Shown: positions 652 to 17,776 of the stretch, piece after piece
Position numbering within the stretch: position 1 is the stretch's first letter
Layout of the letters: every line of letters begins with the position of its first letter
Program-made: the position numbers and the translations under genes
DNA from: an uncultured bacterium
Lineage (GTDB): Bacteria > Fidelibacterota > Marinisomatia > Marinisomatales > UBA1611
DNA length: 32,136 bases
Direction: 5' to 3'
Assembly (NCBI GenBank): GCA_905478065.1
Contig: CAJQGZ010000089.1
Span: 1 to 32,136, forward strand
Notes under the pieces: generated by a model
Databases searched by the model: none
What the model saw: the letters and a program-made list of their open reading frames with translations, nothing else
Told to the model about the DNA's origin: nothing

Positions 652-676
652 ATAGAGTTTAAAAAGGAGTCTGATT

Positions 677-1141: not shown

Positions 1142-1168
1142 TTAAAAACTACATAATAAGATTTAAAA

Positions 1169-1558: not shown

Positions 1559-1677
1559 TGAAGAAAAACTTAAACAGCGGTTTTACGCTAATAGAATTAG
1601 TAATTATCATGGTAATCTTAGGTGTCTTAGCTGCCGTAGCAGTTCCAAGGTTAGGGAATACAATTGATTCTTCTGAA
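1247..1677 (+). repeat. Duplicated 5' segment of pilins P3 and P4
   Basis: The 42 bases at 1247-1288 are identical to 1636-1677 (offset 389), and a further 22-base identical run follows six mismatched-codon bases later (1295-1316 and 1684-1705). Upstream, 1169-1246 and 1558-1635 encode the same residues but differ at several third positions. The identical core encodes the end of the N-terminal helix (VAVPRLGNTIDSSE). Confidence 0.85.
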
Positions 1678-1926
1678 GAAGCTGCTGAAGAAGCAGTCAT
1701 TGGAAGTCTCAGCTCAGCTATAGAAGTTTACGCAATGGATCAAGTAGTTTTAAACTCAGTAAAGAGTTACCCGTTAAACCCGTTTGATGCATTAGATACA
1801 AAAAGTAAAAATGATCTTCTATTTTCAAAAGGCTGGTGGTTTAGCAACGGGAATATTCGACATACTAGAAATGATGGCAGTGAATTAACCTGGGGATACA
1901 ATACATCAACTGGAGAGATTAATTGA
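1558..1926 (+). CDS. Type IV pilin-like protein (array member P4, type C)
   Basis: 122 residues, the shortest complete member. The leader and N-terminal helix are identical to P3 over residues 1-40. The soluble part then diverges: SYPLNPFDAL, GWWFSNGNIRHTRNDGSELT and WGYNTSTGEIN at the very end. The ATG overlaps the P3 stop by one base and no ribosome site is visible within the P3 3' end, so coupled translation is the likely route. Probable recent duplicate of P3 with divergence concentrated in the exposed domain. Function inferred as a fibre subunit. Confidence 0.9.
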   Translation: MKKNLNSGFTLIELVIIMVILGVLAAVAVPRLGNTIDSSEEAAEEAVIGSLSSAIEVYAMDQVVLNSVKSYPLNPFDALDTKSKNDLLFSKGWWFSNGNIRHTRNDGSELTWGYNTSTGEIN

Positions 1927-2327
1927 TGAAAAAATTGTTTAACGAAGGATTCACACTGATTGAATTAGTAATCATCATGGTAGTACTTGGAATTTTAGCA
2001 GCAGTTGCTGTCCCTAGAATGGGTAACACAATTGCATCGTCTGAAGAAGCTGCTGAAAATACGGTTTTAGCTTCTCTTCGAACTGCTGTTGAAGTCTATG
2101 CAATGGACCAAGTGGTCAAAAACTCAAATAAAAGCTATCCGTACAATCCTTTTGACGAGCTTGATAAATTGCCAGAAGGTTACACGAATGATGGCTACCT
2201 TGATGCAGATGGTGAATGGATATTTACATCTGATAATTACATTGCTCACCAAAGAAATGACAACACTCGGCACAAATGGTATTATGATGTAAGCACTGGT
2301 TTATTTGGAGCTAGAGTTGATTACTAA
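1926..2327 (+). CDS. Type IV pilin-like protein (array member P5, type C)
   Basis: Starts at ATG 1926, overlapping the P4 stop by one base (TGATG). A TTG in frame at 1923 would add one residue but is less likely. GGAG at 1911-1914 is a usable ribosome site. The 133-residue prepilin has leader MKKLFNEG, then FTLIELVIIMVVLGILAAVA with Glu5; SYPYNPFDEL; an acidic loop NDGYLDADGEW; and AHQRNDNTRHKWYYDVSTG. It shares EVYAMDQVV with P3 and P4, and part of the acidic loop with type A members, so it looks intermediate between the two groups. Confidence 0.9.
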   Translation: MKKLFNEGFTLIELVIIMVVLGILAAVAVPRMGNTIASSEEAAENTVLASLRTAVEVYAMDQVVKNSNKSYPYNPFDELDKLPEGYTNDGYLDADGEWIFTSDNYIAHQRNDNTRHKWYYDVSTGLFGARVDY

Positions 2328-2377
2328 ACTCGATAGAGATTTTTATGAATTTATTACAACAAAAAGAAAGTTTTAAA

Positions 2378-2764
2378 ATGGTCGCATCAAAAAAATTGCG
2401 TGAAGGTTTTACGCTAGTTGAGCTAATTATTGTAATGGTTATCCTAGGAATTATGGCAGCAGTCGCAGTACCAAAAATGGGTAACATTATATCTCAATCC
2501 GCTGAAGCTGCTGAAAATGCTATACTTGCCCAGCTAGAATCTGCTGCGGAGATCAAAGCATTGGACAATGTTTTATTAACAGGGTATAAAACATATCCTT
2601 CGAATCCTTTTAACGAGTTAGAGAAAACGCCATCAGGTTACACAAATGGTACTGATTCTGGTCAAGAAGATGCATGGTGGTTTTCAGCAGATAAAGTTTA
2701 TCATAGGAGAAATGGCACAAGTTATTTTTGGAGCTATAACTCTAGTAACGGGGAAATAAATTAA
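2378..2764 (+). CDS. Type IV pilin-like protein (array member P6, type C)
   Basis: Prepilin with FTLVELIIVMVILGIMAAVA and Glu5. I chose ATG 2378 because it gives a ten-residue leader (MVASKKLREG) like its neighbours. An in-frame ATG at 2345 would give a 21-residue leader, and neither start has a strong ribosome site. The soluble domain has TYPSNPFNEL, an Asn/Asp/Gly loop, AWWFSADKVYHRRNGTS and FWSYNSSNGEIN as the final residues, like P3 and P4. Fibre subunit by inference. Confidence 0.87.
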   Translation: MVASKKLREGFTLVELIIVMVILGIMAAVAVPKMGNIISQSAEAAENAILAQLESAAEIKALDNVLLTGYKTYPSNPFNELEKTPSGYTNGTDSGQEDAWWFSADKVYHRRNGTSYFWSYNSSNGEIN

Positions 2765-2793
2765 ATTTAACAAAATAAGAATGAGGCAATTAA

Positions 2794-3276
2794 ATGCAAC
2801 ATATGAAAAATAAAAACGGATTTACGATAATAGAGCTTATCATGGTCATGATCATAATCGGAGTTTTAGCGGCAGTCGCTATTCCACGGTTTCAAGATAT
2901 TGTAATTGAAAGTGAAGTTGCTGTAGAACAACGAATATTGAATACTATCTATGATGGTTTGGAGACCTATGCTCGTGAGCAATACATTGCGAACGGTGTT
3001 CGTTCCTGGCCAGAAAATCCATTCGTAGCACTATCTAAACTTCCACCAGATTATGATGCTGACCTTTTTGTACTATCTCAAATGAAAGATAGGGACTGGA
3101 TTTTTACAGGCGAAGGAAACAACCCTACCTACAACCTTGCAATAGCCCATTTAAGAAAATCTGATAGCATTGCGGTTTGGAAATACAATCCTAACGATGG
3201 AAAAATTGAACATAATGGCGCTCCATTTGGTCCTATCAACATCGTTCATAGAGTGAATGGTACTGGCGGTAATTAG
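2794..3276 (+). CDS. Type IV pilin-like protein (array member P7, type B)
   Basis: 160-residue prepilin: leader MQHMKNKNG, then FTIIELIMVMIIIGVLAAVA with Glu5. The soluble domain has SWPENPFVAL, DWIFTGEGN and IAHLRKSDSIAVWKYNP, the same order of segments as P1 (163-651). GAGG at 2783-2786 supports the start at 2794; an internal ATG at 2803 is possible. With the following gene it repeats the B-then-A order seen at P1-P2. Confidence 0.9.
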   Translation: MQHMKNKNGFTIIELIMVMIIIGVLAAVAIPRFQDIVIESEVAVEQRILNTIYDGLETYAREQYIANGVRSWPENPFVALSKLPPDYDADLFVLSQMKDRDWIFTGEGNNPTYNLAIAHLRKSDSIAVWKYNPNDGKIEHNGAPFGPINIVHRVNGTGGN

Positions 3277-3304
3277 AAATATTTATAAATAAGGAATTAT
3301 TATC

Positions 3305-3799
3305 ATGAAGAAAAATAATAAAAATGGTTTTACCTTAATTGAATTAATAATGGTTATGATCATCTTGGGTATTTTGTCTGCAGTGGCTATTCCAAGATAC
3401 TTAGAAACCATACAAAAATCTGAGATCACAGCAGAAGATGCTGTAATAGATAAACTCTGTGCTGCTCTTGAGAATTATGCTCAGCATAAAATGCTAACTA
3501 AAGGAAGACGATACTGGCCGGAAAACCCATTCGAAGCTTTAGAAACGTTACCTCAGACGTATACCACTGACGGTAACGACAGCGATACTGATAATGAGTG
3601 GACATTTGTAAATTGGTATTCTGGCGATGAAAATTCTGGAGGCGTTTCTGGAAGGATTACGCATCAGAGAGCTGACAACACAAGATGGCAGTGGTCTTAC
3701 AATGCGGGTATTAATCACGGAACAGACAAAGATGTAACCGGTACTCTTTATATTAGAACCGAGCTTGGTACAGCGGGGTCTGAAGTACGTTTTCAATAA
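3305..3799 (+). CDS. Type IV pilin-like protein (array member P8, type A)
   Basis: 164-residue prepilin and last member of the array: leader MKKNNKNG, then FTLIELIMVMIILGILSAVA with Glu5. The soluble domain has YWPENPFEAL, an acidic loop TTDGNDSDTDNEW, and GRITHQRADNTRWQWSY, close to P0 and P2. AAGGA at 3291-3295 is the ribosome site. A strong hairpin followed by T-rich sequence lies 35 nt downstream, so the major array transcript can end here. Confidence 0.9.
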   Translation: MKKNNKNGFTLIELIMVMIILGILSAVAIPRYLETIQKSEITAEDAVIDKLCAALENYAQHKMLTKGRRYWPENPFEALETLPQTYTTDGNDSDTDNEWTFVNWYSGDENSGGVSGRITHQRADNTRWQWSYNAGINHGTDKDVTGTLYIRTELGTAGSEVRFQ

Positions 3800-3834
3800 T
3801 AAATAAAAATTCAATTTTATTGATATTATCATTT

Positions 3835-3872
3835 AAGGCTTCGTTAATAATAGCGAAGCCTTTGTAATTTTT
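3835..3872 (+). terminator. Rho-independent-type terminator after the pilin array
   Basis: Perfect 9-bp inverted repeat, AAGGCTTCG at 3835-3843 and CGAAGCCTT at 3854-3862, with a 10-nt AT-rich loop. It is followed by TGTAATTTTT, a broken T tract. It lies between the last major pilin-like gene and the first minor pilin-like gene, so it probably ends or attenuates the array transcript. Read-through would supply less message for the downstream minor pilins. Confidence 0.75.
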
Positions 3873-3879
3873 GGAGTAA

Positions 3880-4350
3880 ATGTTGTTTAAAAAATTAAAA
3901 TCAAATTCTGGCGTTACTATGATAGAACTCGTGATTGTATTAGCGATCATGGGTATCCTTGCAGTTACCGTTGTTCCTATGTTCAGTCAACTTCAACATA
4001 AATCACAAGTCAGTAGAAATTTATCAAATATGAAAATTATTCAAGAAGCATTTTTAAACCATTACTATACCACGTATGCAATCGGCGCGCCTCAAGTCCC
4101 TCCTCCCCCTGTCGATAGTTTAATGACAGATGTTTGGTGTAATACGCCAATGGACTCTTCAATTAATTTTAAAACGCCAAATGAACTATTTGGTACAGGT
4201 GAAATACCAAAGAACTCAAATCATGTTCCTTTTGTTTATCGCAGTTGGATTGATACAGAAATTGATGGCAGACAAAAAAGAAAGATTCTGATTAAGGATA
4301 GTGACGCAGACAGTCCATCCTATGGTGAATTTCTTTTATTTACAATCTAA
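3880..4350 (+). CDS. Prepilin-like protein, first of the minor pilin group
   Basis: 156 residues. Leader MLFKKLKSNSG, then VTMIELVIVLAIMGILAVTV: the residue after the cut is Val instead of the usual Phe, but Glu5 and the hydrophobic helix are present. The soluble part has FSQLQHKSQVSRNLSNMKII, a Pro-rich turn (PQVPPPPVDS) and a C-terminal beta-rich region. It lacks the WP.NPF and R.D..W.Y signatures of the upstream array. GGAG at 3873-3876 is the ribosome site, directly after the hairpin. Likely a minor pilin or pseudopilin; its exact equivalent (GspG, GspH or an MSHA minor pilin) is not clear. Confidence 0.82.
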   Translation: MLFKKLKSNSGVTMIELVIVLAIMGILAVTVVPMFSQLQHKSQVSRNLSNMKIIQEAFLNHYYTTYAIGAPQVPPPPVDSLMTDVWCNTPMDSSINFKTPNELFGTGEIPKNSNHVPFVYRSWIDTEIDGRQKRKILIKDSDADSPSYGEFLLFTI

Positions 4351-4390
4351 CTATTGTTTTTTTATATCAAGCCTTAGATTTAATTAGGGT

Positions 4391-4888
4391 ATGAAAATAA
4401 TAAAACACACAAAACAATCTTCATTATTATCCTCAAAAGGTTTTTCTTTAATTGAACTAGTTATAGTTATGATAATTCTAGGTATCATCATAGCAGCTTC
4501 TTCATCTAGGTTACGCGACATCACAGTTAATGTTAGAATTAACTCTGCTGCCAATCAAATAACTTCAGATATTGACCAAGCAAAAAGCATGTCTATGGGT
4601 CGTAGAAAACAAATAAAATTTGTATTTAATCAAAATAATGAGACATATACTATTTATGAAGAAAATAATTTATTTACTGATTACCCAGGAAGCCTTAATG
4701 GTGTAGTTAGCCTGTCCGAAACCAATAATTCTGGTGTAGACATTACTTCCGTGAATTTAAATGGTACAAATATTTTAACTTTTGATAAATGGGGAACATG
4801 TCTCCAAGGAGGGACAATTATACTAAATCAATATAAAGAAATTCATGTGAAAAAAATCACGGGTTTTTGGGAAATAAAAAATTTATGA
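4391..4888 (+). CDS. GspH/FimT-like minor prepilin
   Basis: 165 residues. A 17-residue leader ends KG, then FSLIELVIVMIILGIIIAAS with Glu5. The following SAANQITSDIDQAKSMSMGRRKQIKFVF is the typical GspH/FimT pattern (helix, then a basic segment leading into beta strands with a Gly-rich DKWGTCLQGGTI turn). GspH-type proteins form part of the tip-initiating complex of pseudopili. The AGGGT just before the ATG is too close to be a good ribosome site. Its 3' end overlaps the next gene by 4 nt (ATGA), indicating coupled translation. Placement as GspH-like is from pattern recognition, moderately sure. Confidence 0.82.
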   Translation: MKIIKHTKQSSLLSSKGFSLIELVIVMIILGIIIAASSSRLRDITVNVRINSAANQITSDIDQAKSMSMGRRKQIKFVFNQNNETYTIYEENNLFTDYPGSLNGVVSLSETNNSGVDITSVNLNGTNILTFDKWGTCLQGGTIILNQYKEIHVKKITGFWEIKNL

Positions 4889-5295
4889 TTATCAAAAAAA
4901 CTATTTCCGGTTTTGCTTTGGTAGAAATTGTAGTTGTCGCTCTGCTTCTCGGCGGTGCTTTTATTGTTTTTATCGAGGCTCTAAACCATACTAAAAAAAT
5001 GCAAGTTAAATCTGAAGTAAAAACAATTCAGACCGTTCTTTTAAATAGTAAAATAAACCAAATCCGCAATACTCAATTCATTGCTATTGCTTCTATAAAT
5101 AACTTTTTAGAATTTGAAAGCAACCCTGGTTATTTTTATAAAGTTAGTGTAAAGCACACTGATCAAACCTTTACAACAATATACGATAATATGACAACAG
5201 ATTTTAAATTAATCACTATAGAAATCAGACATGGACCAGCTCAAGAGGTGGCTCCAATCTTGAGCGATACTTTTGTTGTCAGTAATATTATTTAG
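4885..5295 (+). CDS. GspI/PilV-like minor prepilin
   Basis: Started at ATG 4885, which overlaps the previous stop as ATGA. A TTG at 4867 would extend it by six residues but is less convincing. The 136-residue product has leader MIIKKTISG, then FALVEIVVVALLLGGAFIVF with Glu5, and a small soluble domain. Size, position between an H-like and a J-like gene, and a leader with FALVE point to the GspI/PilV/MshD class that joins the minor pilin tip complex. No further motif allows a firmer name. Confidence 0.78.
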   Translation: MIIKKTISGFALVEIVVVALLLGGAFIVFIEALNHTKKMQVKSEVKTIQTVLLNSKINQIRNTQFIAIASINNFLEFESNPGYFYKVSVKHTDQTFTTIYDNMTTDFKLITIEIRHGPAQEVAPILSDTFVVSNII

Positions 5296-5309
5296 ATAGT
5301 GAAGGATGA

Positions 5310-5885
5310 ATGAATAATAACAAACATATTAAAATCACATCAAAAGGCTTTACTCTTATTGAATTAATTATCACAGTGGTTGCAATCGGTATATTCGGAG
5401 GGATTACTGCAAATATCTTAGCAAATGCTTCAAAAATATATTCAGAGACTTTAAAAAAACAAAAATTTGTCTCTGAGGCAAGATCATCTTTTTTTCAACT
5501 AAATAGGAATCTAAGTTTGCAAACGTGGCCTACTAATGACAATATTATAAATTCAAAAACAATTGATATCAAAAGTGCAAATAATACTCGATTACAATAT
5601 AGTTTTTTAAGTAATAGTGAGCTTCGTTTTAGTATTTATCAACATCCTAATTTAGAGCCTACTTCACAAACCTTATCCACAATTACAGACTTTAATTCGT
5701 CAAACATTTTCTATTATGATGCTCAAAATAATTTCATTATTGATGACTTGTACTCTGATAATATTACTTTAAACAAAATAAATATTTTATTTAATAGTTC
5801 AGGTGATGGATATCTAATGAATTTTGAAAGTTATATTTCTCCTTATAATTATCAGTTTGGGAAACCAATGGACTATCATGAGTAA
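5310..5885 (+). CDS. GspJ/PilW-like minor prepilin
   Basis: 191 residues. The leader ends SKG, then FTLIELIITVVAIGIFGGIT with Glu5, followed by a helix (SETLKKQKFVSEARSSFFQLNRNLS) and a beta-rich domain. This layout (conserved R in the post-helix segment, about 190 residues) is that of the GspJ/PilW/MshO family. AAGGA at 5302-5306 sits close to the start. Its last codons overlap the start of the next gene by 8 nt. Name by position and architecture, not by a diagnostic motif. Confidence 0.78.
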   Translation: MNNNKHIKITSKGFTLIELIITVVAIGIFGGITANILANASKIYSETLKKQKFVSEARSSFFQLNRNLSLQTWPTNDNIINSKTIDIKSANNTRLQYSFLSNSELRFSIYQHPNLEPTSQTLSTITDFNSSNIFYYDAQNNFIIDDLYSDNITLNKINILFNSSGDGYLMNFESYISPYNYQFGKPMDYHE

Positions 5886-8331
5886 GGTGAAAACTATTTC
5901 TTTTAATACTCTAAAAAAAACAAGTGATGGTGTCATCTTAATTTCTATGTCTTTAGGTATTTTCGTGATTATAAGTATTTTTACATTCTTTCTAATGAAG
6001 CTAGTTGTAAAAGAAAACAATATGTCTTTATATCATGCTTTAGATATTAAAACAAGAAATCTTGCACATTCTGCTATGGGTCGAGGAATTTTTCAATTTG
6101 GAAATTTAAGAAATATTACTTCACAAACTGGTAATCTCAATAATGGTAACTATGCTATTTCATACGATGGGGTAGCTGATGAGATAGGAGATCCTCTACC
6201 CTATTCTCATTATACGATGCTGAAATCTGATGCTGAAATCAGTGATTCCCAAAGAAAAACCAGAATATTTCTTTCTTCGTTTCCAAGCGGATTCAATCCA
6301 GCATTTTATGGTGAAAACATATCCGACCAATCTTTTGATGGTGGTATTATAAATGGCGGTCACCTTATAAAAAAGAATGGAAACTTTTTCCATAATGGTA
6401 CTCAGATAAATATGGAAGGTATAAAAGAAGGTATGCCTCAATTTAATAACATGTATGATGATGAAATCATTTGGACTCAAAATAATGTAGAAATCAATTC
6501 GTCGAACCCAGGAAATAACCCAAATAATAAGTTTTTAAATTTTGATGGGAACGACTACGTAAAAGTGATCTATTCAAATACCACAACCACAACCACTTAT
6601 GAGACTACAACCACAACCATACCAGGAACAACAACAAATTACACAGCTACTTTTGAGGGTAGAAGCGGCTCTTTAGGTGGAAGTGGTTACATGGGTATGA
6701 ATTGGCATGGAAGACTCTACGTATTAAATGGTTCTGGGTATGGTAACTCTGGATATCAAACAGCGGTAACTTCAGGAACTCAAGTTGCCTATAATGCTTG
6801 GAATGAGCAAAATGTTTATTTTGAATCAAGTAATGGTTCAGAATTTGATTTCCGAGATTTTTATTGTGCATCTGCATGGTATAATAGCCAAACTCTTTAC
6901 GTAAGAGGCTATAAAAATGGTTCTCAAAAATATAATAAATCGTTCACTATTTATAAAACGACTAGACAAAAATTAACCTGTGATTTTTATGATGTAGATA
7001 AAATTATTTTTTCGAACAGCGGTAACCATGTAGCATTTGATAACTTCCGCTGGACAAAAACTAGCCCGTCGACAACGACAACGACGACGACTCCTGTTAC
7101 GACGAGTACAACAACGACCACTCTACCAAAATTTAATGAGAATAGAACATTTGTCGCATGGGTCAAACCTTCTGATGATCACAATACTGGTGGTGGAATC
7201 TTAACTTCTGGAACAGGCGATTGCACAGGGAAAATGTTCGCCATTGGAAGAAGCGGAGGAAAGTTGTTTTTTTGGGGAGGATGCAAAGACTGGGCCTCAA
7301 ATCTAACCATTCCGAAAGATCAATGGTCATTTATTGCTGTGACATATAATGGAAGTAAAGTTCGAGCATTTGTTAATGGCGTTTGGGAAGAAACGACACT
7401 GAATGGATTTAATACTCAAATAAGTGAACTTTTTATCGGTGGAGAAACGACGAATAATGGATCTTCTTTTAGAAACTATTTTCGGGGGGGGATAGATGAA
7501 GTGGCTGTTTGGAATAAGGCTTTAGCAAATTCTGAAATATTAGCTTTGTATAATAATGGAGCAGGATTAGACGCATCTTCAAATTCAGGAGATTACATTT
7601 CGGAAAATAATTTAAGAGGCTATTGGAAATTCAATGATGGTGCTGGCTCATCCCTATCTGATAATAGTGGAAATGGGAAAAATGGGACAAACTATGGAGC
7701 AACATGGAATACTGGAAGTCATACACAATCACAAATTGGTCCTCTAGTTTTTAATTCTGGCACTCAGTTAAACCTCAATTCTCCAAATTGTGGATCTGAC
7801 CATACATCTATTTGCGTGAATAATAAAATTGCAGTAAACCAAAATATAATTTTTAATGATACAGATATATCAGGTTCTGGAATTATAGTGGCGACTGGGA
7901 AAATAACTATAAATCAAAACAGCACAGTTGGTGGAGGCGTTACTTTCATTGCAAATGATATTGAAATCATTGATGTTTCAATGGGAGAGCCATCTTTATT
8001 TAATAGTTCTAGCGGTCCTGTAATTATATATATCGAAAATGGAGGTCTAATATCTAATTCAAATAATATATCAGGTCTTATAATAAATAATGATTCAAAT
8101 AACTCTGGTACCCTTACAATAAATAATTCAAGTATTAATGGAGCAATATTGAATTATAGTTCTAATTTCATACTAAGTAACAATACAAGTATCGTAGGTT
8201 CTATCGTTTCTAACTATCTTGTTGCAATGGATAATAGCTCAAGCATAACAAAAGGAAATCTTCCTTCATTTTATGGAAAGAACATTGGATTAAATAGTTC
8301 CGTAATCCCAGGAAGCTACCTAGAATACTAA
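5878..8331 (+). CDS. GspK/PilX-position prepilin-like protein with split LamG lectin domain
   Basis: 817 residues from ATG 5878, which overlaps the previous gene by 8 nt; an in-frame ATG at 5824 would lie deep inside that gene. A basic N-terminus is followed by DG then VILISMSLG and a membrane helix (about 19-42). Glu5 is absent, as in GspK. Residues 218-234 (FLNFDGNDYVKV) look like the first strand of a LamG/concanavalin A-like jelly roll, but the next LamG strand (RTFVAWVKP) begins only near residue 422. Between them lie two Thr-rich linkers (about 235-253 and 399-416) flanking an independent beta-sandwich. LamG continues to about 610 (DQWSFIAVTYNGSKVRAFVNG; YFRGGIDEVAVWNKAL; GYWKFNDG). Residues 630-817 are an Asn/Ser-rich, beta-helix-like repeat region. 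It probably caps the fibre tip and may bind glycans. MshQ of MSHA loci is recalled to carry a similar lectin-like domain. Confidence 0.82.
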   Translation: MSKVKTISFNTLKKTSDGVILISMSLGIFVIISIFTFFLMKLVVKENNMSLYHALDIKTRNLAHSAMGRGIFQFGNLRNITSQTGNLNNGNYAISYDGVADEIGDPLPYSHYTMLKSDAEISDSQRKTRIFLSSFPSGFNPAFYGENISDQSFDGGIINGGHLIKKNGNFFHNGTQINMEGIKEGMPQFNNMYDDEIIWTQNNVEINSSNPGNNPNNKFLNFDGNDYVKVIYSNTTTTTTYETTTTTIPGTTTNYTATFEGRSGSLGGSGYMGMNWHGRLYVLNGSGYGNSGYQTAVTSGTQVAYNAWNEQNVYFESSNGSEFDFRDFYCASAWYNSQTLYVRGYKNGSQKYNKSFTIYKTTRQKLTCDFYDVDKIIFSNSGNHVAFDNFRWTKTSPSTTTTTTTPVTTSTTTTTLPKFNENRTFVAWVKPSDDHNTGGGILTSGTGDCTGKMFAIGRSGGKLFFWGGCKDWASNLTIPKDQWSFIAVTYNGSKVRAFVNGVWEETTLNGFNTQISELFIGGETTNNGSSFRNYFRGGIDEVAVWNKALANSEILALYNNGAGLDASSNSGDYISENNLRGYWKFNDGAGSSLSDNSGNGKNGTNYGATWNTGSHTQSQIGPLVFNSGTQLNLNSPNCGSDHTSICVNNKIAVNQNIIFNDTDISGSGIIVATGKITINQNSTVGGGVTFIANDIEIIDVSMGEPSLFNSSSGPVIIYIENGGLISNSNNISGLIINNDSNNSGTLTINNSSINGAILNYSSNFILSNNTSIVGSIVSNYLVAMDNSSSITKGNLPSFYGKNIGLNSSVIPGSYLEY
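6580..6636 (+). repeat. Threonine-rich linker 1 (low-complexity)
   Basis: Encodes TTTTTTYETTTTTIPGTTT, 14 threonines written only with ACA, ACC and ACT (no ACG). It sits at the boundary where the LamG-type fold is interrupted. Such linkers are often extended, exposed and glycosylated; no direct evidence for that here. Confidence 0.8.
6637..7062 (+). other. Inserted beta-sandwich domain within the LamG-bearing protein
   Basis: About 142 residues (253-394 of the 817-residue product) rich in aromatic and Gly residues: ATFEGRSGSLGGSGYMGMNW, RLYVLNGSGYGNSGYQTAV, SGTQVAYNAWN, EFDFRDFYCASAWYN, LYVRGYKNGSQKY, and a final HVAFDNFRW strand. This order resembles a domain recalled from small exported proteins (GLNW..fyVLdg..GY..g..SG..vAyN...) that end in a D-N-[LF] strand. 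It is bounded on both sides by Thr-rich linkers, as expected of an independently folding insert. Family assignment is from memory and unverified. Confidence 0.6.
7072..7125 (+). repeat. Threonine-rich linker 2 (low-complexity)
   Basis: Encodes TTTTTTTPVTTSTTTTTLP, again 14 threonines, but seven of them use ACG, a codon absent from linker 1. It ends just before the resumption of the LamG strand RTFVAWVKP. Confidence 0.8.
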
Positions 8332-8786: not shown

Positions 8787-9194
8787 ATGATATACATACT
8801 TAGCATTGGAAGTATTTCAGTTTTTTTTGGGTTCCTACTTTTAGCTGCCCCAAATACTATTTTATCTATCGAAAGAAGAGCTAATAAGATATACATGACA
8901 GATCCAACTTTCATGCAGTATCGAGTGCCGTTTGGGGTCGGTCTTTTTGCTGCCTCTATATTTATTATTTATTCTTTAATTAATGAATCTACAGAATACT
9001 TGATAATCATTGGAGTCTTAGCCCTAATTTTCAGCTTGATGTTGTTGCTAACTCCAAAAGCAATATTTTCTCTAGAAAGGCAAGCTAATAGGGTCTATAT
9101 GACAGACCCAACATTTATGAAATATCGTGTGCCTTTTGGTATCTTTTTGCTTTTATCTGGAGCTTTCATGATATATTCAAGCATTGGTTATTTT
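8787..9194 (+). repeat. Internal tandem duplication (2 x 204 nt)
   Basis: Codons 1-68 (8787-8990) and 69-136 (8991-9194) encode homologous units of exactly equal length. The shared YMTDPTFM loop is encoded with different synonymous codons in the two copies, so the duplication is old and held by selection on protein. Confidence 0.8.
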
Positions 9195-9197
9195 TAA
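8787..9197 (+). CDS. Four-helix membrane protein made of two 68-residue repeats
   Basis: 136 residues, strongly hydrophobic, with about four membrane spans (roughly 1-21, 46-64, 70-88, 114-132). Residues 17-64 and 85-132 align without gaps at a period of 68 (about 29 of 48 identical). Both copies hold an E-R-x-A-N segment then YMTDPTFM and YRVPFG between helices. The two conserved loops should face the same side of the membrane. I do not recognise the family. No clear ribosome site precedes the ATG. It lies between the minor pilins and the ATPase fusion, 21 nt before the latter, which suggests but does not prove a role in the same system. Confidence 0.8.
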   Translation: MIYILSIGSISVFFGFLLLAAPNTILSIERRANKIYMTDPTFMQYRVPFGVGLFAASIFIIYSLINESTEYLIIIGVLALIFSLMLLLTPKAIFSLERQANRVYMTDPTFMKYRVPFGIFLLLSGAFMIYSSIGYF

Positions 9198-9218: not shown

Positions 9219-12098
9219 TTGGAATTATTTGAATCAATTGGTCTTAAAGCCGATCCATTTACAACCTCCCCAAACCCTGATTTATTTTTTCCTGCAAAAG
9301 AGCATAAACAATGTCTCGAAGGCCTTGAGCTCGCAATTAGAATGCGCAGAGGATTATCCGTCGTTAGAGGAGGTATCGGAACTGGAAAGACGACAATAAG
9401 TAGAAAACTAATCCAAAACTTCTCATCAGATGAAGATGTCAAATTTGAATTTTATCCAGTTCTAGATCCAAAATTTGAATCTGAACTAGTTCTTTTACAA
9501 CATCTAGTAGACTTATTCGGAATTGAAGAGGATGCCGGCTCAGCTGTAATCGAATGTAGGAATCAAATTGAACACCATCTAATCAAGGCAGGCGTAGAAG
9601 ATGGTCGAGTACTAGTCCTGGTAATCGACGAAGGTCAAAATTTAAAAGGTGAATTTTTAGATGTTTTCAGAACATTATTAAATTTTGAAACAGATGATTT
9701 CAAACTGCTTCAATTAGTGATTTTTGGCCAACCTGAAATGACTTCTATCATTCATGAGTATCCAAATTTTGAAGACAGAATTACATTTAATTTTGAACTT
9801 GGTCCACTTGATTTTGAATCTGTGGAAGGTATAATAAAACATCGATTAACTGAAAAAGGTGGTGGTGGCCGTGAGTATTTCACTACCGATGCTATTCGTG
9901 CGATACATAATCAAACCCAAGGCTATCCAAGAAAGATTAATAAGTTATGCCATCAGCTGCTGCTAAATATGATGAGTGAGAAAGCTGAGATGGTATCCCT
10001 CGGAATTGTTGAAAATACAATTGGTGGAAAAGTGCCTGATGGACTTATAGATCAAGAAGAGCCTGAAGAAGTAGTAGCCATAAAAGAGGAAAAAGAAGAA
10101 GAGCCTGAAGAAAAGAAAGATGTTGCCGCAAATAAACTCTTTGATATTTTAAGAAAGAGCGGGAAAAAAGATAGCGGTAGCGGTAAAATTGGAGAATCAG
10201 TATCTGAAGACGATATCATTGGCGATCTATATGGCGAAACTGATGAAGATGATGAAGATGACGAATTAGAAGAGGAAATCGTTGAAGAAGAAGAAGAAAG
10301 CAAATGGTTCCAACGGCGTAAACAAAGATTAAAAAAGAACATTGGTGCTTATCCTGCAAACATAAATCCTCCTGCTCTTAAGAAAGAAAAATTGCTTTTA
10401 GGCATTGCAATGGATCAAGGACATATATACTCAGCATTAGTGCAAGATAAAGGCGGTATTAAATCACTCATTGGGGCTGATATTTTTTCTGCAACTAAAG
10501 CAAAGTTAGATCCAAAAAGAAACCCAACCGGGTTTTCTGTTGCTTTAGGAAAAGCGTATGAACAATTAACAACAAAGCTTGAAAAAAAAGGAAGTAAAGT
10601 TCCGCGAAGTATTACTAAAAAACTTCATGCCGGAGTACCGATAGCTTTTACAATTAACAATACTTCAAGCTTATTAAAAACTGTTCTTGTCCCTCAAGAA
10701 AATAAAAAAGAGCGGAAGATGATTATTGAGTATGATGCGAAAAAAAATCTTCCTTTCAATTCAGATGATATTATTTTTGACTCGGTTGAATTAGAGCAGG
10801 GCAAAAATATCATTGGTGTTGCAAATGCCGAATACATAGATGCCCCCGCACAAACTTTATCAGAAAAAAAGTGGGATGTTCGCTTTTGGCCTCCTGCAGC
10901 TCAAACCGTTTTAAATTCATTTCGCTGGAACTACCCTGGGAAAAAACACGATATCGTTTTAATTTTTCATATTGGAGAAATTGAAAGTTTTTTACTAGGT
11001 TATAATCAAGGGTACCCAGACGCAATCGTTCCACTAGACCTTGGTATTCAGAACCTTACAGATGCATGGAAATATCGTTCTACCGCATCTAAAGCAAAAT
11101 GGGATAAAAGAGATTACTGTAGAGTCCCTCCGTCAATTTTAAAATCTGAAATAAAAGATAATTCTACAAATAAACAGAAAAAACCGCAAGACGATGCAAT
11201 GCGTCCTGTAATTGAAGGTTGGGATCAAGAGCTTGAAAGAGCGTTAAATAGCATGGCGCAATCTTTTCCTGTTGATAACATTTCTGAAATTTTCTTAAGT
11301 GGCTGCGCAGAAGAAGTGTTGTTTCTTGATGAGTACCTGCACAATCAATTAGACGTAACCGTCGAATATTTGGACCCTTTTAAAAATATAGCATTTTTTC
11401 CTGATGAAGAAGAGAGAGAAAATTTTGATTTTTCAAAAACAGCTCTTACCACTGCTGTTGGGGCCGCTCTTAATCTTGATAAATCTATAAGTCTTCTACC
11501 AGATATGTTTAAAGAGTCTGAAAAATTTAGACTGGGTAATAAGTTTAGTATTCCTGCAGCTGCGGCAATTTTCTTTGGAGTTATTTCTTTATCGGGTTGG
11601 ACATCAGTAAACCATGATGATATGCGCTCGAAGCTCAATTCGATGAGATCTCAAGCTTCAAGTATTGCTCCAATAAAAAATAAATATGAAAAAGTTTCCT
11701 CTGAAAAGAATACTATTGTGAAACAGCTCGATGTACTTCTAAAAGAATCGAAACTTTCCAATTTATCTATTAGTGTCATGCGATTTTTTAGCTACAATAC
11801 GCCAAAAGAAATAACATTAGATATGATTTCTTTTCAACGCGGCTGGGAACGTGGAGACTGGATCCATGTTGGGAATTCGCTTGAAAAAGTAATTACCATT
11901 GTTGATGAAAATAAAGATTTTGCAAAAGTTGCTGGGGCAATCACCGCTAACCCGGCATTAAAAGAAAGATACTTTTCAAACTTCATTACTCAAGTTGAGA
12001 ATTCTGGTCTTTTTAAAAAAATTGATGTCATTAATAAAAAAACTACAAGCGGTATGGATATTGACAATATGACATTTGAACTAAAGTGTGAATTATAA
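9219..12098 (+). CDS. Fusion of ExeA/MshM-type AAA ATPase, PilM and PilN
   Basis: 959 residues from TTG 9219. The frame is closed by TAA at 9195-9197, no in-frame ATG precedes the conserved FESIGLKADPF start, and AAGGG at 9202-9206 is a possible ribosome site. Residues 1-270: AAA ATPase like GspA/ExeA/MshM, with Walker A GGIGTGKTT at 51-59 and Walker B VLVLVIDE at 131-138. Residues about 277-365: very acidic, low-complexity linker. Residues about 390-750: PilM-like actin-fold domain (GIAMDQGHIYSALV; VPQENKKERKMIIEYDAKKN; IFLSGCAEEVLFLDEYL; late VGAALNLD). Residues 757-761, ISLLP, match the INLLP motif at the PilN N-terminus. A membrane helix follows (about 777-797), then a coiled coil and a PilN-like periplasmic domain. 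GspL is a natural PilM-PilN fusion; adding the ATPase is the unusual part. It should couple cytoplasmic ATPase and PilM to the PilO/PilP inner-membrane complex. Confidence 0.88.
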   Translation: MELFESIGLKADPFTTSPNPDLFFPAKEHKQCLEGLELAIRMRRGLSVVRGGIGTGKTTISRKLIQNFSSDEDVKFEFYPVLDPKFESELVLLQHLVDLFGIEEDAGSAVIECRNQIEHHLIKAGVEDGRVLVLVIDEGQNLKGEFLDVFRTLLNFETDDFKLLQLVIFGQPEMTSIIHEYPNFEDRITFNFELGPLDFESVEGIIKHRLTEKGGGGREYFTTDAIRAIHNQTQGYPRKINKLCHQLLLNMMSEKAEMVSLGIVENTIGGKVPDGLIDQEEPEEVVAIKEEKEEEPEEKKDVAANKLFDILRKSGKKDSGSGKIGESVSEDDIIGDLYGETDEDDEDDELEEEIVEEEEESKWFQRRKQRLKKNIGAYPANINPPALKKEKLLLGIAMDQGHIYSALVQDKGGIKSLIGADIFSATKAKLDPKRNPTGFSVALGKAYEQLTTKLEKKGSKVPRSITKKLHAGVPIAFTINNTSSLLKTVLVPQENKKERKMIIEYDAKKNLPFNSDDIIFDSVELEQGKNIIGVANAEYIDAPAQTLSEKKWDVRFWPPAAQTVLNSFRWNYPGKKHDIVLIFHIGEIESFLLGYNQGYPDAIVPLDLGIQNLTDAWKYRSTASKAKWDKRDYCRVPPSILKSEIKDNSTNKQKKPQDDAMRPVIEGWDQELERALNSMAQSFPVDNISEIFLSGCAEEVLFLDEYLHNQLDVTVEYLDPFKNIAFFPDEEERENFDFSKTALTTAVGAALNLDKSISLLPDMFKESEKFRLGNKFSIPAAAAIFFGVISLSGWTSVNHDDMRSKLNSMRSQASSIAPIKNKYEKVSSEKNTIVKQLDVLLKESKLSNLSISVMRFFSYNTPKEITLDMISFQRGWERGDWIHVGNSLEKVITIVDENKDFAKVAGAITANPALKERYFSNFITQVENSGLFKKIDVINKKTTSGMDIDNMTFELKCEL

Positions 12099-12103
12099 TT
12101 AGT

Positions 12104-12916
12104 ATGGATAAGCAAAAAAATCTTTTTATAGGAACCATAGCTTTCGTCATTTTATCATGTGGAGTTTGGTATTTCATGTATTTCAGTGAACTAAATAAAT
12201 CACTAGAATCAATGAGCAATAATTATAAGCAACTACAAAATGAAAAAAATAAATATTCTCAAATAAAAAATAAGTTCCCCACAATTGAGAAAGAATGGAA
12301 GGACCTTAAAAAAGAACTAACTGCTCTAATCAATAAAATTCCAACAGATTCACAATTCGATAACGTCACTAAAATGCTATTTAGCCTTTTAGAAAAAAAT
12401 AAACTCGCGATTGATAACTTTAACCCTTCTCTTGCACCACTCGACGAAAAACAAATTATAAGTCCTGAGACTCAAGAAATGATTTTAGTCGAGAAATATC
12501 CAATTGATGTTGAATTGAGAGGAAGTTTTATCAACTTTGGCAACTTTTTAGATCAACTAGCTTTTTCAAATTATTATCTAACAATAGGAAATATCCAAAT
12601 ATCACAAAACCAGTATTCGGAAGGCGAACAAAAAATATCTTTCATATCTTACATTTATACAAAAAACAGTAGCAATGACATTAGCCTAATCCAAAATGAC
12701 CAAAACTACGCAAGTACTTCCAACAAGGTTCAGAATAACTCTGGTTTAACAGATCAATCCGAAGAAGACCTTATCACAGAAGCAATACAAACTACTGGAG
12801 CTACCAGTTTGGTTGATATTGTTAAGATAATAAAACATATTAAAGACAACTCAGGAAAAGACATTGATGAGAATCTTGTATTATCTTTGCTTCAAAAAAG
12901 GCTTAAAAACTTATAG
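12104..12916 (+). CDS. pilO: PilO-like inner-membrane assembly protein
   Basis: 270 residues: short cytoplasmic N-terminus, one membrane helix (about 8-28), a coiled coil (about 35-78, LESMSNNYKQLQNEKNKYSQ), then the ferredoxin-like PilO fold. Family features are KIPTDSQFDNVTKMLFSLLE (the 'LP...ei..lL..l' region) and ELRGSFINFGNFLDQLAFS ('G.Y..l..Fl..la'). A Ser/Asn-rich tail (about 200-270) is longer than usual. It starts 5 nt after the ATPase-PilM-PilN gene and should pair with its PilN domain in the periplasm. Equivalent to GspM/MshJ. Symbol given by family. Confidence 0.85.
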   Translation: MDKQKNLFIGTIAFVILSCGVWYFMYFSELNKSLESMSNNYKQLQNEKNKYSQIKNKFPTIEKEWKDLKKELTALINKIPTDSQFDNVTKMLFSLLEKNKLAIDNFNPSLAPLDEKQIISPETQEMILVEKYPIDVELRGSFINFGNFLDQLAFSNYYLTIGNIQISQNQYSEGEQKISFISYIYTKNSSNDISLIQNDQNYASTSNKVQNNSGLTDQSEEDLITEAIQTTGATSLVDIVKIIKHIKDNSGKDIDENLVLSLLQKRLKNL

Positions 12917-12998: not shown

Positions 12999-13541
12999 AT
13001 GACCCCTAGACTTAGAAACCTGTTAATTGGATTGGGGATTTCAGTGGCGATCATGATTTTTGATCATTTTAACCAGTCATCTGGATCCAGCAGTTCTAAC
13101 GCTTCGAAACAAGCAAAAACTAGAAAGCCTAAAAAGGTAGTTGTGCAAAAATCTGTACAGGCTAATAGTGCGCCCAGTTCTAAAAATATTGCTTCTATCA
13201 CCAATATCCGAAAAAGGTCTAATCGGTCTTCTCAGCTTGTTGGCTGGCAAAGAAACCCTTTTAATACTGTCGCCATAAATAGCGAGGCTGACATTGATGG
13301 TTCATCAATTAGTTCGGAGCAAGAAAAAGATATTGAAAAATCAATTCTTTTGAAAAATCTTGAGCGGTATAATGTCGAAATCGTTGCTGAGTTTAATAAT
13401 GAGAAAATCGTATTGATTGATAGTCGAAGGTTCAGGCAAGGTGAATACCTAAACGATGAAATACTAATTGATAGAATTGAAAATGATCAAATTACTTTTC
13501 GAAATGGTAGTACAACTGTTACTAGAAATGTTGGAAACTAA
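12999..13541 (+). CDS. PilP/GspC-like secretin-linking protein
   Basis: 180 residues: N-terminal membrane helix (about 6-23), Ser/Lys-rich extended linker (about 27-80), the motif WQRNPF near 84-89 (PilP proteins have R-D/N-P-F at this place), and a C-terminal beta domain (YNVEIVAEFNNEKIVLIDSR; LIDRIENDQITFRNGSTTV) like the HR domain of PilP/GspC. It bridges the inner-membrane PilN-PilO complex and the secretin. PilP is normally a lipoprotein; here a membrane helix and no lipobox make it more GspC/MshK-like. The stop is directly followed by the secretin ATG at 13542. Confidence 0.78.
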   Translation: MTPRLRNLLIGLGISVAIMIFDHFNQSSGSSSSNASKQAKTRKPKKVVVQKSVQANSAPSSKNIASITNIRKRSNRSSQLVGWQRNPFNTVAINSEADIDGSSISSEQEKDIEKSILLKNLERYNVEIVAEFNNEKIVLIDSRRFRQGEYLNDEILIDRIENDQITFRNGSTTVTRNVGN

Positions 13542-14861
13542 ATGATAAGAAATAAATATTTACTTATTCTAATTATTATGCAAGCTTTGGCGATGTCTCA
13601 ATGGGACGACCCCGCTTATTCAAGGATTACGCAGAGTGATCAGGAAAATGAACGCTATAAATTAATGGATAAAATGTCTATCAATCTAAAAGAGTCAGAC
13701 ATTAGGAATGTTTTAACTATGATTGGTGAACTTACGGGATTAAATATTGTTATCAGTCCCAATATTCAAGATACCATCACCGCAAACTTGGAAAACGTTA
13801 CTGTAAAAGCAGCCTTAGATGCTATTTTAAAGCCAAATAACTACAGCTATTTTGTTCAAGATAATATCATAATTGTTAAAGACTTGGATACTCAGTTAAT
13901 TGGTGAACTAGAATCTGTCGTCATTAGACTTAAATATATCAATTCAAATGACCTCCAGGCGCCACTTTCAACTATTTTAACATCAAGAGGAACGGTCCAA
14001 TCCTTCCTCCCCGTTGCCTCGATGGCGGGCCAAACAGGTCCTCCTAATATGGCAATTGTATCCGATGTTCAAGAGAACATCCCAAGGGTTTTGAGCATGG
14101 TTAAACAGTTGGATAAGCCTATAAAAAATATAAACATTGCTGTCAAATTTATTGAAACACAAATGGATACCTCTAAAGCTTACGGCGTTGATTGGACTAA
14201 TAGCCCGATACAATTAGGTGGTAGCCCTGATGATACAGTTAATTTCCCAATAAACCTTAGCAATATTACCATTGCAACGCTTAATCCAACCCAGTTTGCT
14301 TCCGCTCTGAAGATCATGCAAGCTAGAGGACGAAGCAAATTATTATCAAGTCCTCAAGTAACGACACTTGATAATCATCAAGCCACAACGGAAGTTTCTA
14401 CAACTGTCTACATCGAAGGGCTAAACTCTGGTGGAAACAATAGCGGGGGAAACAATCAAGGAAATGCTGTAGGTGGTGTCCAAGGTTTATCACTCTATGG
14501 GAATACAACAACAGTCCAAGAAAAAGATATTGGTATAAAATTACAAGTAACTCCAAGAATCAATGAAAATAACATAATTACCCTTTTAGTAGATGCAACC
14601 GTAGAAGCTTTACTTTCGGCCGCAGAAATTTCTACGGATAAGCCGCGTTCAACAAAGAGAACTGTAACTACACAAGTTTCAGTCTTTAACGGAGAAACTG
14701 TTATAATTGGTGGACTCATTGCCGATAATATTATTAGGAATAAAAAATATGTTCCGATTCTTAGTGCTATACCTATTGTAGGTTATTTTTTTAAAACTAC
14801 TTCTGTTCAGAAAGAGCAACGCGAGTTGCTTATGTTCATCACTCCAACTATTTACGATTAG
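13542..14861 (+). CDS. Secretin (PilQ/GspD/MshL family)
   Basis: 439 residues, short for the family. Signal peptide (about 1-19, MQALAMSQ). STN-type N0 domain about 46-115 (INLKESDIRNVLTMIGELTG; VTVKAALDAILKPNNYSYFV). An N1-like domain to about 195 (VVIRLKYINSNDLQAPL; SDVQENIPRVLSMVKQLDKP). The secretin beta-barrel core runs to the end: NIAVKFIETQMDTSKAYGVDW, LLSSPQVTTLDNHQATTEVS, VTPRINENNIITLLVDA, GETVIIGGLI, and the signature VPILSAIPIVGYFF followed by RELLMFITPTI. A Gly/Asn-rich loop (about 292-312) interrupts the core. There are no AMIN or pilotin-binding domains. It forms the outer-membrane channel for the fibre and starts immediately after the PilP-like stop. Confidence 0.92.
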   Translation: MIRNKYLLILIIMQALAMSQWDDPAYSRITQSDQENERYKLMDKMSINLKESDIRNVLTMIGELTGLNIVISPNIQDTITANLENVTVKAALDAILKPNNYSYFVQDNIIIVKDLDTQLIGELESVVIRLKYINSNDLQAPLSTILTSRGTVQSFLPVASMAGQTGPPNMAIVSDVQENIPRVLSMVKQLDKPIKNINIAVKFIETQMDTSKAYGVDWTNSPIQLGGSPDDTVNFPINLSNITIATLNPTQFASALKIMQARGRSKLLSSPQVTTLDNHQATTEVSTTVYIEGLNSGGNNSGGNNQGNAVGGVQGLSLYGNTTTVQEKDIGIKLQVTPRINENNIITLLVDATVEALLSAAEISTDKPRSTKRTVTTQVSVFNGETVIIGGLIADNIIRNKKYVPILSAIPIVGYFFKTTSVQKEQRELLMFITPTIYD

Positions 14862-14872
14862 ATAGAATCATT

Positions 14873-17776
14873 ATGCAAAAAGATTATCCATATATTATTA
14901 TTTCTTTTAGCGTTGCTGTTGTTTTCATTCTTTTAACTCTATTTGGGCTTGGCGAAGGGCTTGAAAACAAACTTCTAGACCTAAGGTTTTTAAATAGAGG
15001 GAAAATTGAGACTAGAAGTGATATTGCAACTTTGGACATGGATGCGAAGAGTTTACAAGTAACTGGAAGGTGGCCATGGAGTAGAGAGAAACATATTCCT
15101 TCAATCTTAGCTGCAAAAGAGCATGGAATGGATGCCTTAGCTTTTGATATTTTTTTTATTGAAAGACAAGAAAGAAAGTTGGAATTTGAAGATATTTCAA
15201 CAATAAATGATAGTGTACTAACTCTAAAAGAAGTTAAAAACCTTTTCCCTGATCCTGATATTGAGGTAGCAAATGCCGCTGAAGATGCTGGTAATATTTA
15301 TTTTGGATACACTTTTTTCCCTCAACCTTCAAAGAAAATGTCCATCAAAAAGCGAACAAACGATAAAGAAAAACGCTTACAAATTTTAAAAGAAAGAAAA
15401 TTCTATCGACAAATTTCTCCAAACGAATATAAAACAGTAAATGATTTTTATGATATTGACCCTCCTGTTGATGAACTAATAAAATCAAGCAAAGGCACTT
15501 ACTTTTTTCAAACTGTTGCTGAAGATGACGGAGTAAGTAGAAAATATCCCTTATTTGGTAAATATGAAGATGGACTATTTCCTAATGCTGGATTAGCTTT
15601 AGCGCTCGATCATTATAATGTCAATTTTAATGATGTTGAAATCATTCCAGGAAAACATTTATCCATCCCCCTACCTTATCAGGATGAACACGGCCGAGAT
15701 GCTATCGAAATTCCTATTGATAAACGAGGTCTAATGCAAGTTAACTGGGCTGGTCAATGGGAAGATGAAAATGGAAACTTTGATTTTACGCACTACCCTT
15801 ATTGGGTTTTAAAAAAATTCAGAGAAACTGAGTATGATAATTTTGTAATGGCTAATGTGAAGAAAATAGCCTTCTCTGATTCAACTCTTCAAGGGGCAAA
15901 AAATTTAAAAGCTCTAATGCGTGCAGCATTTAAAGCAAAATTTGCGAGTAAAAAAGATGTGATTAAGGCAGTGAAACAGCTAGCAATGGCTGGTCAAATG
16001 GAATCATACATACAAAAGACAAATAATTTAAATACGGGTGAACAGTTTTTTGAAAGCATGGGCCGAAAAGCGAAACCTCAAATGATAAAAATGTATAATG
16101 AAATAAAGAATGCAAATATCATTTCCAAAGAACTATTATCAGATTCAAATATCAGTCTCAATGATCTTTTAACATCAAAAAAAATCGTATTTGAAGCACC
16201 TATTAAAGGATACAGCATAAGTAGCTTTGACAAACTTAAAAAAGATGTCAGCTCTTTATCGAAGACAACTAAAGATAAAAATTATAAAAAGACCTTAAAA
16301 AAATCCCTTGTAGAAATATCCCAGCTTGAAAGAAATTTTTTAATCGTTCAAAATCTGAACAAGCACAGTATTACTGATCAACAAAGACCTCTATATTTTT
16401 TCCAAAACAAGGACAGAATCACAGTTGGGAATATTAAAAAAAATACAGCTCGTAGAATTGTACCTTTTGAATTTTATAAGAAAAAATTATTGTATGGTTT
16501 AACAGCTGCTGGTACATCAGATCTTGGTTCACAACCATTTAATGGTAGTTATCCTATGGTTGGACTTCACGCAAACGCTTTAAATACAATCTTATCTGAT
16601 ATTTTTATAACCAGGACTTCAAAGATTATTGTTTCAATAATCCTATTGTTTTTAGCGGCGTTATTAGCATTTGGAATTCAAAGACTTAGCCCTGCAATTG
16701 GTGGAATCGCTGTTTTAGGACTTATAATAACATATACTGCATCAGCTTTTTGGGCATTTTCAAATTATTACTTATGGTTAGATTTATTTGCTCCAATTGC
16801 GACCATAGGACTTGGTTATCTAGGAATAACGGTCTACAACTATATCCAAGAAGAAAAAAATAAACAATTCTTAAAATCCTCATTTGGAACATATATATCT
16901 CCTGAGCTAATTGATGAAATGTATGAAAGTGGGAAAGAGCCTGAACTCGGTGGAGAAGAAGGTTATCACACCGCATTCTTTACCGATATTCAAAGTTTCT
17001 CGGCCTTTTCTGAAAAACTTTCTGCAAGTGACTTAGTCAGTTTATTAAATGATTACCTAACAGAAATGACTGACATCCTAATGGAGAATAACGGAACATT
17101 AGATAAATATATTGGGGACGCTATCGTAGCCTTTTATGGCGCTCCACTTGATTTAAAAAACCATGAACTGATGGCTTGCAGGACTGCAATAAAAATGCAA
17201 GAACGCTTAGCTGTATTAAGACAGCAATGGCAAGAAGAAGGTGACCGTTGGCCAGAAATAGTTCATCATATGCAAAATCGGATAGGTATAAATACAGGCA
17301 AAATGGTGACTGGAAATATGGGTTCTGAATCAAGAATGAATTATACAATGATGGGTGATACTGTAAATCTTGCTGCAAGGCTTGAAAGCTCAGCAAAGCA
17401 ATATGGAGTTTATATACAGCTATCTGACAGTACCTATGAAGCAGTAAAAGATCAAGTGGTTGTTCGAGCCCTTGATTTCGTAAGGGTCATGGGTAAAACA
17501 GAACCCGTAAAGGTCTTTGAATTAATCTCTGAAAAAGGACAAGAACCAGAACCATACAAAAAAATTCTTCCAATATTTCATGAGGGCTTAGAAAATTATT
17601 TCAAACAAGATTGGGACAAAGCAATTGAAGCGTTTAAAACAGCTGATGAATTAGAAGAAATGTTTCCAGGAAGAAAAACGAATCCTAGCAGAATATATAT
17701 TCCTCGCTGTCAGAATTTTAAAGCGAATCCCCCTGGAGATGATTGGGACGGTGTCTGGACTCAAACCTCTAAATAG
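14873..17776 (+). CDS. CHASE2-domain class III adenylyl cyclase
   Basis: 967 residues: N-terminal membrane helix (about 7-25), a large extracytoplasmic CHASE2-type sensor (LLDLRFLNRGK, GRWPWSREKH, ALAFDIFF) with a long Lys-rich insert (about 340-480), three membrane helices (about 583-660), and a catalytic domain (about 690-880). Metal-binding Asp are D705 (FTDIQSFS) and D749 (YIGDAIVAFYG). Lys745 (LDKYIGD) and Thr825 (YTMMGDTVN) occupy the base-specifying positions, and N832 and R836 are the transition-state pair. Lys/Thr fits an adenylyl cyclase of the IIIb kind. A TPR-like tail follows (about 900-967). It starts 11 nt after the secretin stop, so it is probably in the same operon; cAMP could regulate pilus or surface behaviour. 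Ligand of CHASE2 unknown. Confidence 0.92.
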   Translation: MQKDYPYIIISFSVAVVFILLTLFGLGEGLENKLLDLRFLNRGKIETRSDIATLDMDAKSLQVTGRWPWSREKHIPSILAAKEHGMDALAFDIFFIERQERKLEFEDISTINDSVLTLKEVKNLFPDPDIEVANAAEDAGNIYFGYTFFPQPSKKMSIKKRTNDKEKRLQILKERKFYRQISPNEYKTVNDFYDIDPPVDELIKSSKGTYFFQTVAEDDGVSRKYPLFGKYEDGLFPNAGLALALDHYNVNFNDVEIIPGKHLSIPLPYQDEHGRDAIEIPIDKRGLMQVNWAGQWEDENGNFDFTHYPYWVLKKFRETEYDNFVMANVKKIAFSDSTLQGAKNLKALMRAAFKAKFASKKDVIKAVKQLAMAGQMESYIQKTNNLNTGEQFFESMGRKAKPQMIKMYNEIKNANIISKELLSDSNISLNDLLTSKKIVFEAPIKGYSISSFDKLKKDVSSLSKTTKDKNYKKTLKKSLVEISQLERNFLIVQNLNKHSITDQQRPLYFFQNKDRITVGNIKKNTARRIVPFEFYKKKLLYGLTAAGTSDLGSQPFNGSYPMVGLHANALNTILSDIFITRTSKIIVSIILLFLAALLAFGIQRLSPAIGGIAVLGLIITYTASAFWAFSNYYLWLDLFAPIATIGLGYLGITVYNYIQEEKNKQFLKSSFGTYISPELIDEMYESGKEPELGGEEGYHTAFFTDIQSFSAFSEKLSASDLVSLLNDYLTEMTDILMENNGTLDKYIGDAIVAFYGAPLDLKNHELMACRTAIKMQERLAVLRQQWQEEGDRWPEIVHHMQNRIGINTGKMVTGNMGSESRMNYTMMGDTVNLAARLESSAKQYGVYIQLSDSTYEAVKDQVVVRALDFVRVMGKTEPVKVFELISEKGQEPEPYKKILPIFHEGLENYFKQDWDKAIEAFKTADELEEMFPGRKTNPSRIYIPRCQNFKANPPGDDWDGVWTQTSK

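Follow-up and report, generated by a model that had tools for sequence, protein, structure and literature searches.

What might an ATPase of the ExeA/GspA/MshM type do when it belongs to the same polypeptide as PilM and PilN? The question is raised by a gene of a pilus operon in a 32,136-nucleotide stretch of DNA from an uncultured bacterium, referred to here as the window. Positions 9219–12098 form a single open reading frame, uninterrupted by any stop, that begins at a TTG and runs for 959 codons; profile matches and a fold search within it recover the domain order read in an earlier note on this DNA: ATPase, linker, PilM, ISLLP motif, membrane helix and PilN. The features of the operon are as follows.

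163–8331, forward strand: GspG-like pilins (eight in tandem, 163–3799) and minor pilins, including one of 835 residues with a LamG domain
9219–12098, forward strand: fused gene, AAA+ ATPase–linker–PilM–PilN, 959 residues, TTG start (open reading frame, profile searches, alignment)
9219–10028, forward strand: ExeA/GspA/MshM-type AAA+ ATPase domain, residues 1–270 (TIGR03015, 3e-50; AAA_22, 9e-17)
9369–9395, forward strand: Walker A, residues 51–59, GGIGTGKTT (G51, G52, G54, G56, K57, T58 and T59 invariant in 15 of 15 fusions)
9609–9632, forward strand: Walker B, residues 131–138, VLVLVIDE (D137 and E138 invariant in 15 of 15 fusions)
10029–10373, forward strand: acidic disordered linker, residues 271–385 (pLDDT, composition, hydropathy)
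10128–10157, forward strand: short conserved motif inside the linker, residues 304–313, ANKLFDILRK (alignment)
10374–11471, forward strand: PilM-like actin fold, residues 386–751 (PF11104, TIGR01175, NF045709; Foldseek to 2ych and 5eou)
11487–11501, forward strand: ISLLP motif, residues 757–761, counterpart of the INLLP docking motif of PilN (sequence; VNLLP or INLLP in most relatives)
11544–11600, forward strand: single membrane helix, residues 776–794 (hydropathy scan)
11607–12098, forward strand: PilN-like coiled coil and periplasmic ferredoxin-like domain, residues 797–959 (PF05137 in relatives; predicted helix–EEHEE topology)
12104–12916, forward strand: PilO (PF04350, 2e-9)
12999–13541, forward strand: PilP/GspB-like small protein (position; weak homology-region matches, T2SSB 0.07 and SctD C-terminus 8e-4)
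13542–14861, forward strand: secretin of PilQ/GspD type (Secretin, 3e-40; TIGR02515 PilQ, 1e-52)

Domain composition of the fused protein

At the N-terminus is the AAA+ domain, of which residues 8–267 are matched by the XrtA/ExeA-type ATPase model TIGR03015 (profile search, 3e-50) and which carries Walker A and B motifs of the ExeA type, placing it among the ExeA/GspA/MshM-type ATPases. The score lies below the equivalog cut-off of the model (324.5 bits), and identity with the XrtA protein itself is rejected on this ground. No membrane helix is found ahead of residue 776 by hydropathy scan, and none belongs to the ATPase; no peptidoglycan-binding domain is matched by Pfam in the fused protein. 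Since the only membrane segment belongs to PilN and no peptidoglycan-binding domain is present, the ATPase is assigned to the cytosolic MshM type and not to the multidomain GspA proteins. In the latter, the ATPase is followed by a membrane helix of its own and a periplasmic domain that binds peptidoglycan; both are absent here, and the analogy with GspA action on peptidoglycan drawn in the earlier note finds no support. The ATPase is the best-conserved part of the chain, with a mean identity among 15 fusions of 67% (34% for PilM and 37% for PilN) and 95 invariant columns.

Connecting the ATPase to PilM is a linker that spans 115–197 residues in relatives, is variable in sequence and contains no membrane helix (composition and hydropathy); in an AlphaFold2 model built on an alignment of 15 relatives, pLDDT is below 50 across residues 273–371. 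The same model is good for approximately residues 372–759, with the linker disordered and residues 1–72 poorly predicted, and shows no confident docking of the ATPase onto PilM. Foldseek places PilM structures first for this model (5eq6, 5eou, 3jc8 and 2ych; target TM up to 0.77, E between 1e-17 and 5e-15); the cytoplasmic domains of FtsA and GspL rank lower. Profile searches agree: the C-terminal half of PilM (residues 651–751) is matched by TIGR01175 PilM (5e-8) and PF11104 PilM_2 (2e-10; 40.9 bits, over 27), and residues 467–845 by NF045709, the model of the PilM-like protein Amuc_1101 (1e-15, 57.5 bits), which matches 15 of 15 fusions. The ATP phosphate motif of PilM, D-x-G-x(4)-K (Lys26 of Thermus thermophilus PilM), is lost in the fusions (alignment), so that the AAA+ domain may be the sole nucleotide-binding part of the chain. 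As the motif is also degenerate in many relatives with a separate ATPase gene, and kept in others, the loss is independent of the fusion.

The PilN part, identified by the ISLLP motif at residues 757–761, the helix at 776–794 and a predicted topology of a long helix followed by strand–strand–helix–strand–strand, is the weakest of the domain assignments as judged from profiles and prediction. This topology fits the permuted ferredoxin fold of PilN and PilO (PMC4471445 for the fold). Hence the expectation of the earlier note that both folds lie within residues 390–959 is borne out for PilM by three profile models and by Foldseek, and only in part for PilN: the window protein has no direct Pfam match there, PF05137 PilN has matches in 13 of the 36 relatives in the alignment (7.5e-7 at best), and a fold search with the PilN domain alone returns chance matches that are not significant.

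Each segment of the chain has a counterpart in a known system. MshM of MSHA pili and other ExeA-like or XrtA-associated ATPases (TIGR03015) are likewise AAA+ domains of about 270 residues lacking a peptidoglycan-binding part, and MshM is likewise encoded together with a type IV filament platform; MshM is, however, a separate protein, whereas here the platform protein itself begins with the AAA+ domain. In the GspA/ExeA–GspB pairs, including natural GspAB fusions, an ATPase of the same family is partnered or fused with an inner-membrane component, and a PilP/GspB-like protein is encoded close to the fusion in the window. GspA, however, usually carries a membrane helix and a peptidoglycan-binding domain of its own and is fused to GspB rather than to PilM or PilN. 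GspL of type II secretion and the Amuc_1101 family of Akkermansia combine the PilM actin fold and a PilN-like part in a single chain built around one membrane helix, as the earlier note had said of GspL, but have no ATPase domain in front; the 57.5 bits of the window protein, against an equivalog cut-off of 650, place it outside the Amuc_1101 family. Type IVa PilM and PilN (2ych, 5eou, 3jc8) share the PilM fold and an INLLP-type docking motif, but are separate, mutually binding proteins, and D-x-G-x(4)-K is degenerate in the fusion. The PilM–PilN fusion is already known and old (GspL, Amuc_1101), as is the GspA–GspB fusion. No description of an ATPase–PilM–PilN chain was found in the openly licensed literature, and none of the NCBIfam or Pfam models matched here spans the whole chain.

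Occurrence and origin of the fusion

The same full-length open reading frame turns up, in a search of 61 related genomes, across many genera of uncultured ocean bacteria that belong to a single family-level group within Candidatus Neomarinimicrobiota (Marinimicrobia, SAR406); at least 16 genomes have the fusion. Fifteen copies were aligned end to end, the others being 34–87% identical to the window protein. Their assemblies stem from numerous separate projects, and some bear isolate names of single-cell style (a single-cell origin is taken from the names); incomplete copies stop at contig ends. An assembly or frameshift artefact, a point that the earlier note had wanted checked, is thereby ruled out in practice. 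No member of the group was seen with separate ATPase and PilMN genes; one apparent fission (G144, L184) is a PilMN fragment at a contig end beside unrelated genes, which reads as a chimeric contig and was not counted. The fusion is a fixed trait of the family-level group, in which every complete PilMN protein starts with this AAA+ domain, and not a peculiarity of the window genome. A contig search with the single protein had matched nothing, and the copies were found by an alignment-based search that relied on two peptide patterns, so that fusions may also exist in other phyla. The locus also lies on contigs labelled Thaumarchaeota SAT137 and Euryarchaeota SP88 (L071, L083), record names that look wrong.

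In other Neomarinimicrobiota families and in Calditrichota, a separate ATPase gene (approximately 275–345 residues) lies directly upstream of a PilM–PilN gene, in the operon order ATPase, PilM–PilN fusion, PilO and PilQ, with a PilP-like gene often placed before PilQ. At equal PilMN divergence, the fused ATPases show roughly the same conservation as these split ones, or a higher one, in a comparison of pairs that are not independent. In most split loci the end of the ATPase gene runs 8 nucleotides into the PilMN gene, which lies in a different frame; in three (L172, L173, L174) the two genes share one frame with a single stop between them. All fused copies form one clade of the ATPase tree (support 100/100), which requires one change and leads us to reject multiple independent fusions. 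Together with the operon order of the split relatives, this single clade argues that the joining of PilM to PilN is ancestral and that the ATPase joined them in a single event at the base of the fusion family. As read from the sequences, the fusion arose end to end from two neighbouring, usually overlapping genes. In one genome (L092, 7298–10255) PilMN is further fused to PilO (985 residues) and the ATPase is separate; the ATPase of this metagenome-assembled genome groups with those of Calditrichota.

The joint itself preserves a trace of the ancestral gene. Within about the first 25 residues of the separate PilMN proteins of Neomarinimicrobiota and Calditrichota is the motif ATNRLLDLLR, or a variant of it, the counterpart of which (residues 304–313) sits about 30 residues past the ATPase in the fusion, indicating that the whole N-terminus of PilMN was retained. 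No conserved internal start codon was found in the fusions between the ATPase and this motif, and free PilMN is accordingly not expected. The fused copy is the sole TIGR03015-type ATPase in eight of the nine fusion-group genomes checked, and the ninth has two, both fused. Both observations support the fixed 1:1 ratio of ATPase to platform proposed in the earlier note. Two fusion copies on different contigs (L042, L064) are found in genome G014. Most relatives start the fused gene with TTG, CTG or apparently ATT and only a few use ATG, which suggests weak initiation.

Proposed role of the ATPase on the platform

The fused ATPase has no match to the T2SSE domain (PF00437), and its candidacy as the pilus motor (PilB or PilT) was rejected, T2SSE motors being encoded by separate genes. 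A PilB-type motor with an MshEN domain is encoded elsewhere, as is GspF, and in several relatives both lie on the contig of the fusion; the presence of this separate motor argues against a motor function of the fused ATPase. In the related secretion systems, the ATPase domain of ExeA is required for ExeB complex formation and secretin multimerisation (PMC4098917), and GspB, which also occurs in GspA–GspB fusions, has the fold of the PilP/GspC homology region (PMC9239104). By analogy to these, the ATPase most likely acts on the platform, and on balance we favour reading the protein as a PilM–PilN (GspL-like) inner-membrane platform subunit with a built-in MshM-type ATPase that acts on the platform itself. 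ATP-driven formation of an AAA+ ring would gather copies of PilMN, with PilO and PilP, into a ring that could serve as a docking place for the N0 domain of the secretin, followed by release. The long flexible linker would let the AAA+ domains meet without distorting PilM, the covalent joining would raise their local concentration and set the 1:1 ratio, and a separate motor of PilB/MshE type would power filament growth.

In Vibrio cholerae, deletion of mshM did not lower the number of surface MSHA pili, and insertions in mshM suppressed a pilus-dependent motility defect (PMC4624765). The first of these results cautions against assuming an essential assembly role for MshM-type ATPases, and together they indicate that their role may instead be regulatory. 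They also bear on a rather unlikely alternative, in which the fused ATPase, seated beside PilM, regulates or helps the motor, switching extension on and off or promoting disassembly in filaments that have no PilT of their own. PilM and GspL are the known docking place of the PilB/GspE motor (PMC6325625, PMC4471445), and the contigs with the fusion carry PilB nearby and no PilT, whereas the split operons of other families have PilT/PilU-like genes directly after PilQ. However, the ATPase is not a member of the PilT/PilB family, and it persists in split relatives that do have PilT/PilU-like genes; it is therefore no substitute for PilT.

Unlikely, too, is that the fusion makes no mechanical difference, overlapping genes having been joined through a small mutation and their products acting as before with only their expression ratio altered. 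Little would have been needed, since the genes already overlapped by 8 nucleotides or were parted by one in-frame stop, and the linker is long, disordered and variable; yet no reversal is seen in the group, though fission would be easy, and even a neutral fusion would show that the ATPase can withstand being permanently linked to PilMN. Highly improbable is a GspA-like action on peptidoglycan that places the secretin, for although the domain resembles the ExeA/GspA family, it comes with neither a peptidoglycan-binding domain nor a membrane helix of its own. A role in pilus assembly control, as the earlier note had proposed, is inferred. A tentative and somewhat doubtful extension is that, in type IV filament systems generally, the ExeA/MshM ATPase serves to remodel the PilMN platform as a dedicated AAA+ protein, gripping it by the N-terminal motif A-T-N-[KR]-L-L-x-x-[LI]-R, which two phyla share and the fusion keeps in its linker.

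The role and partner of MshM-type ATPases have been unclear to date, pilus number in V. cholerae being kept on mshM deletion, and the fusion, natural and conserved over a long time, points to PilMN as the likely partner; the split relatives offer a direct route to testing this partnership. The fusion further implies a type IV filament platform with an AAA+ domain of its own on each subunit, a geometry not described for type IV pili, type II secretion systems or MSHA pili in the literature searched.

Further genes of the operon

Upstream of the fusion, the eight tandem GspG-like pilin paralogues (163–3799) carry N-methylation motifs, and a genome of the same genus (G003; L035, 1345–5239) likewise has eight tandem pilin genes. 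The 835-residue minor-pilin-like protein (5824–8331), which has threonine-rich stretches and into which a LamG domain is inserted (PF13385, 3e-18), is a possible tip adhesin. Immediately preceding the ATPase is a membrane protein of two repeats (8787–9197; SLER.AN..YMTDPTFM.YRVPFG), which is conserved at this position in families f1, f7 and f25. Directly after the secretin is a CHASE2-adenylate cyclase (14873–17776), conserved in the fused family and in a split genome (G110, L171), which hints at a possible control of the filament by cAMP. In another genome (G021; L086, L045), the PilO gene is enlarged (approximately 849 residues) and the CHASE2 cyclase lies between PilO and PilP.
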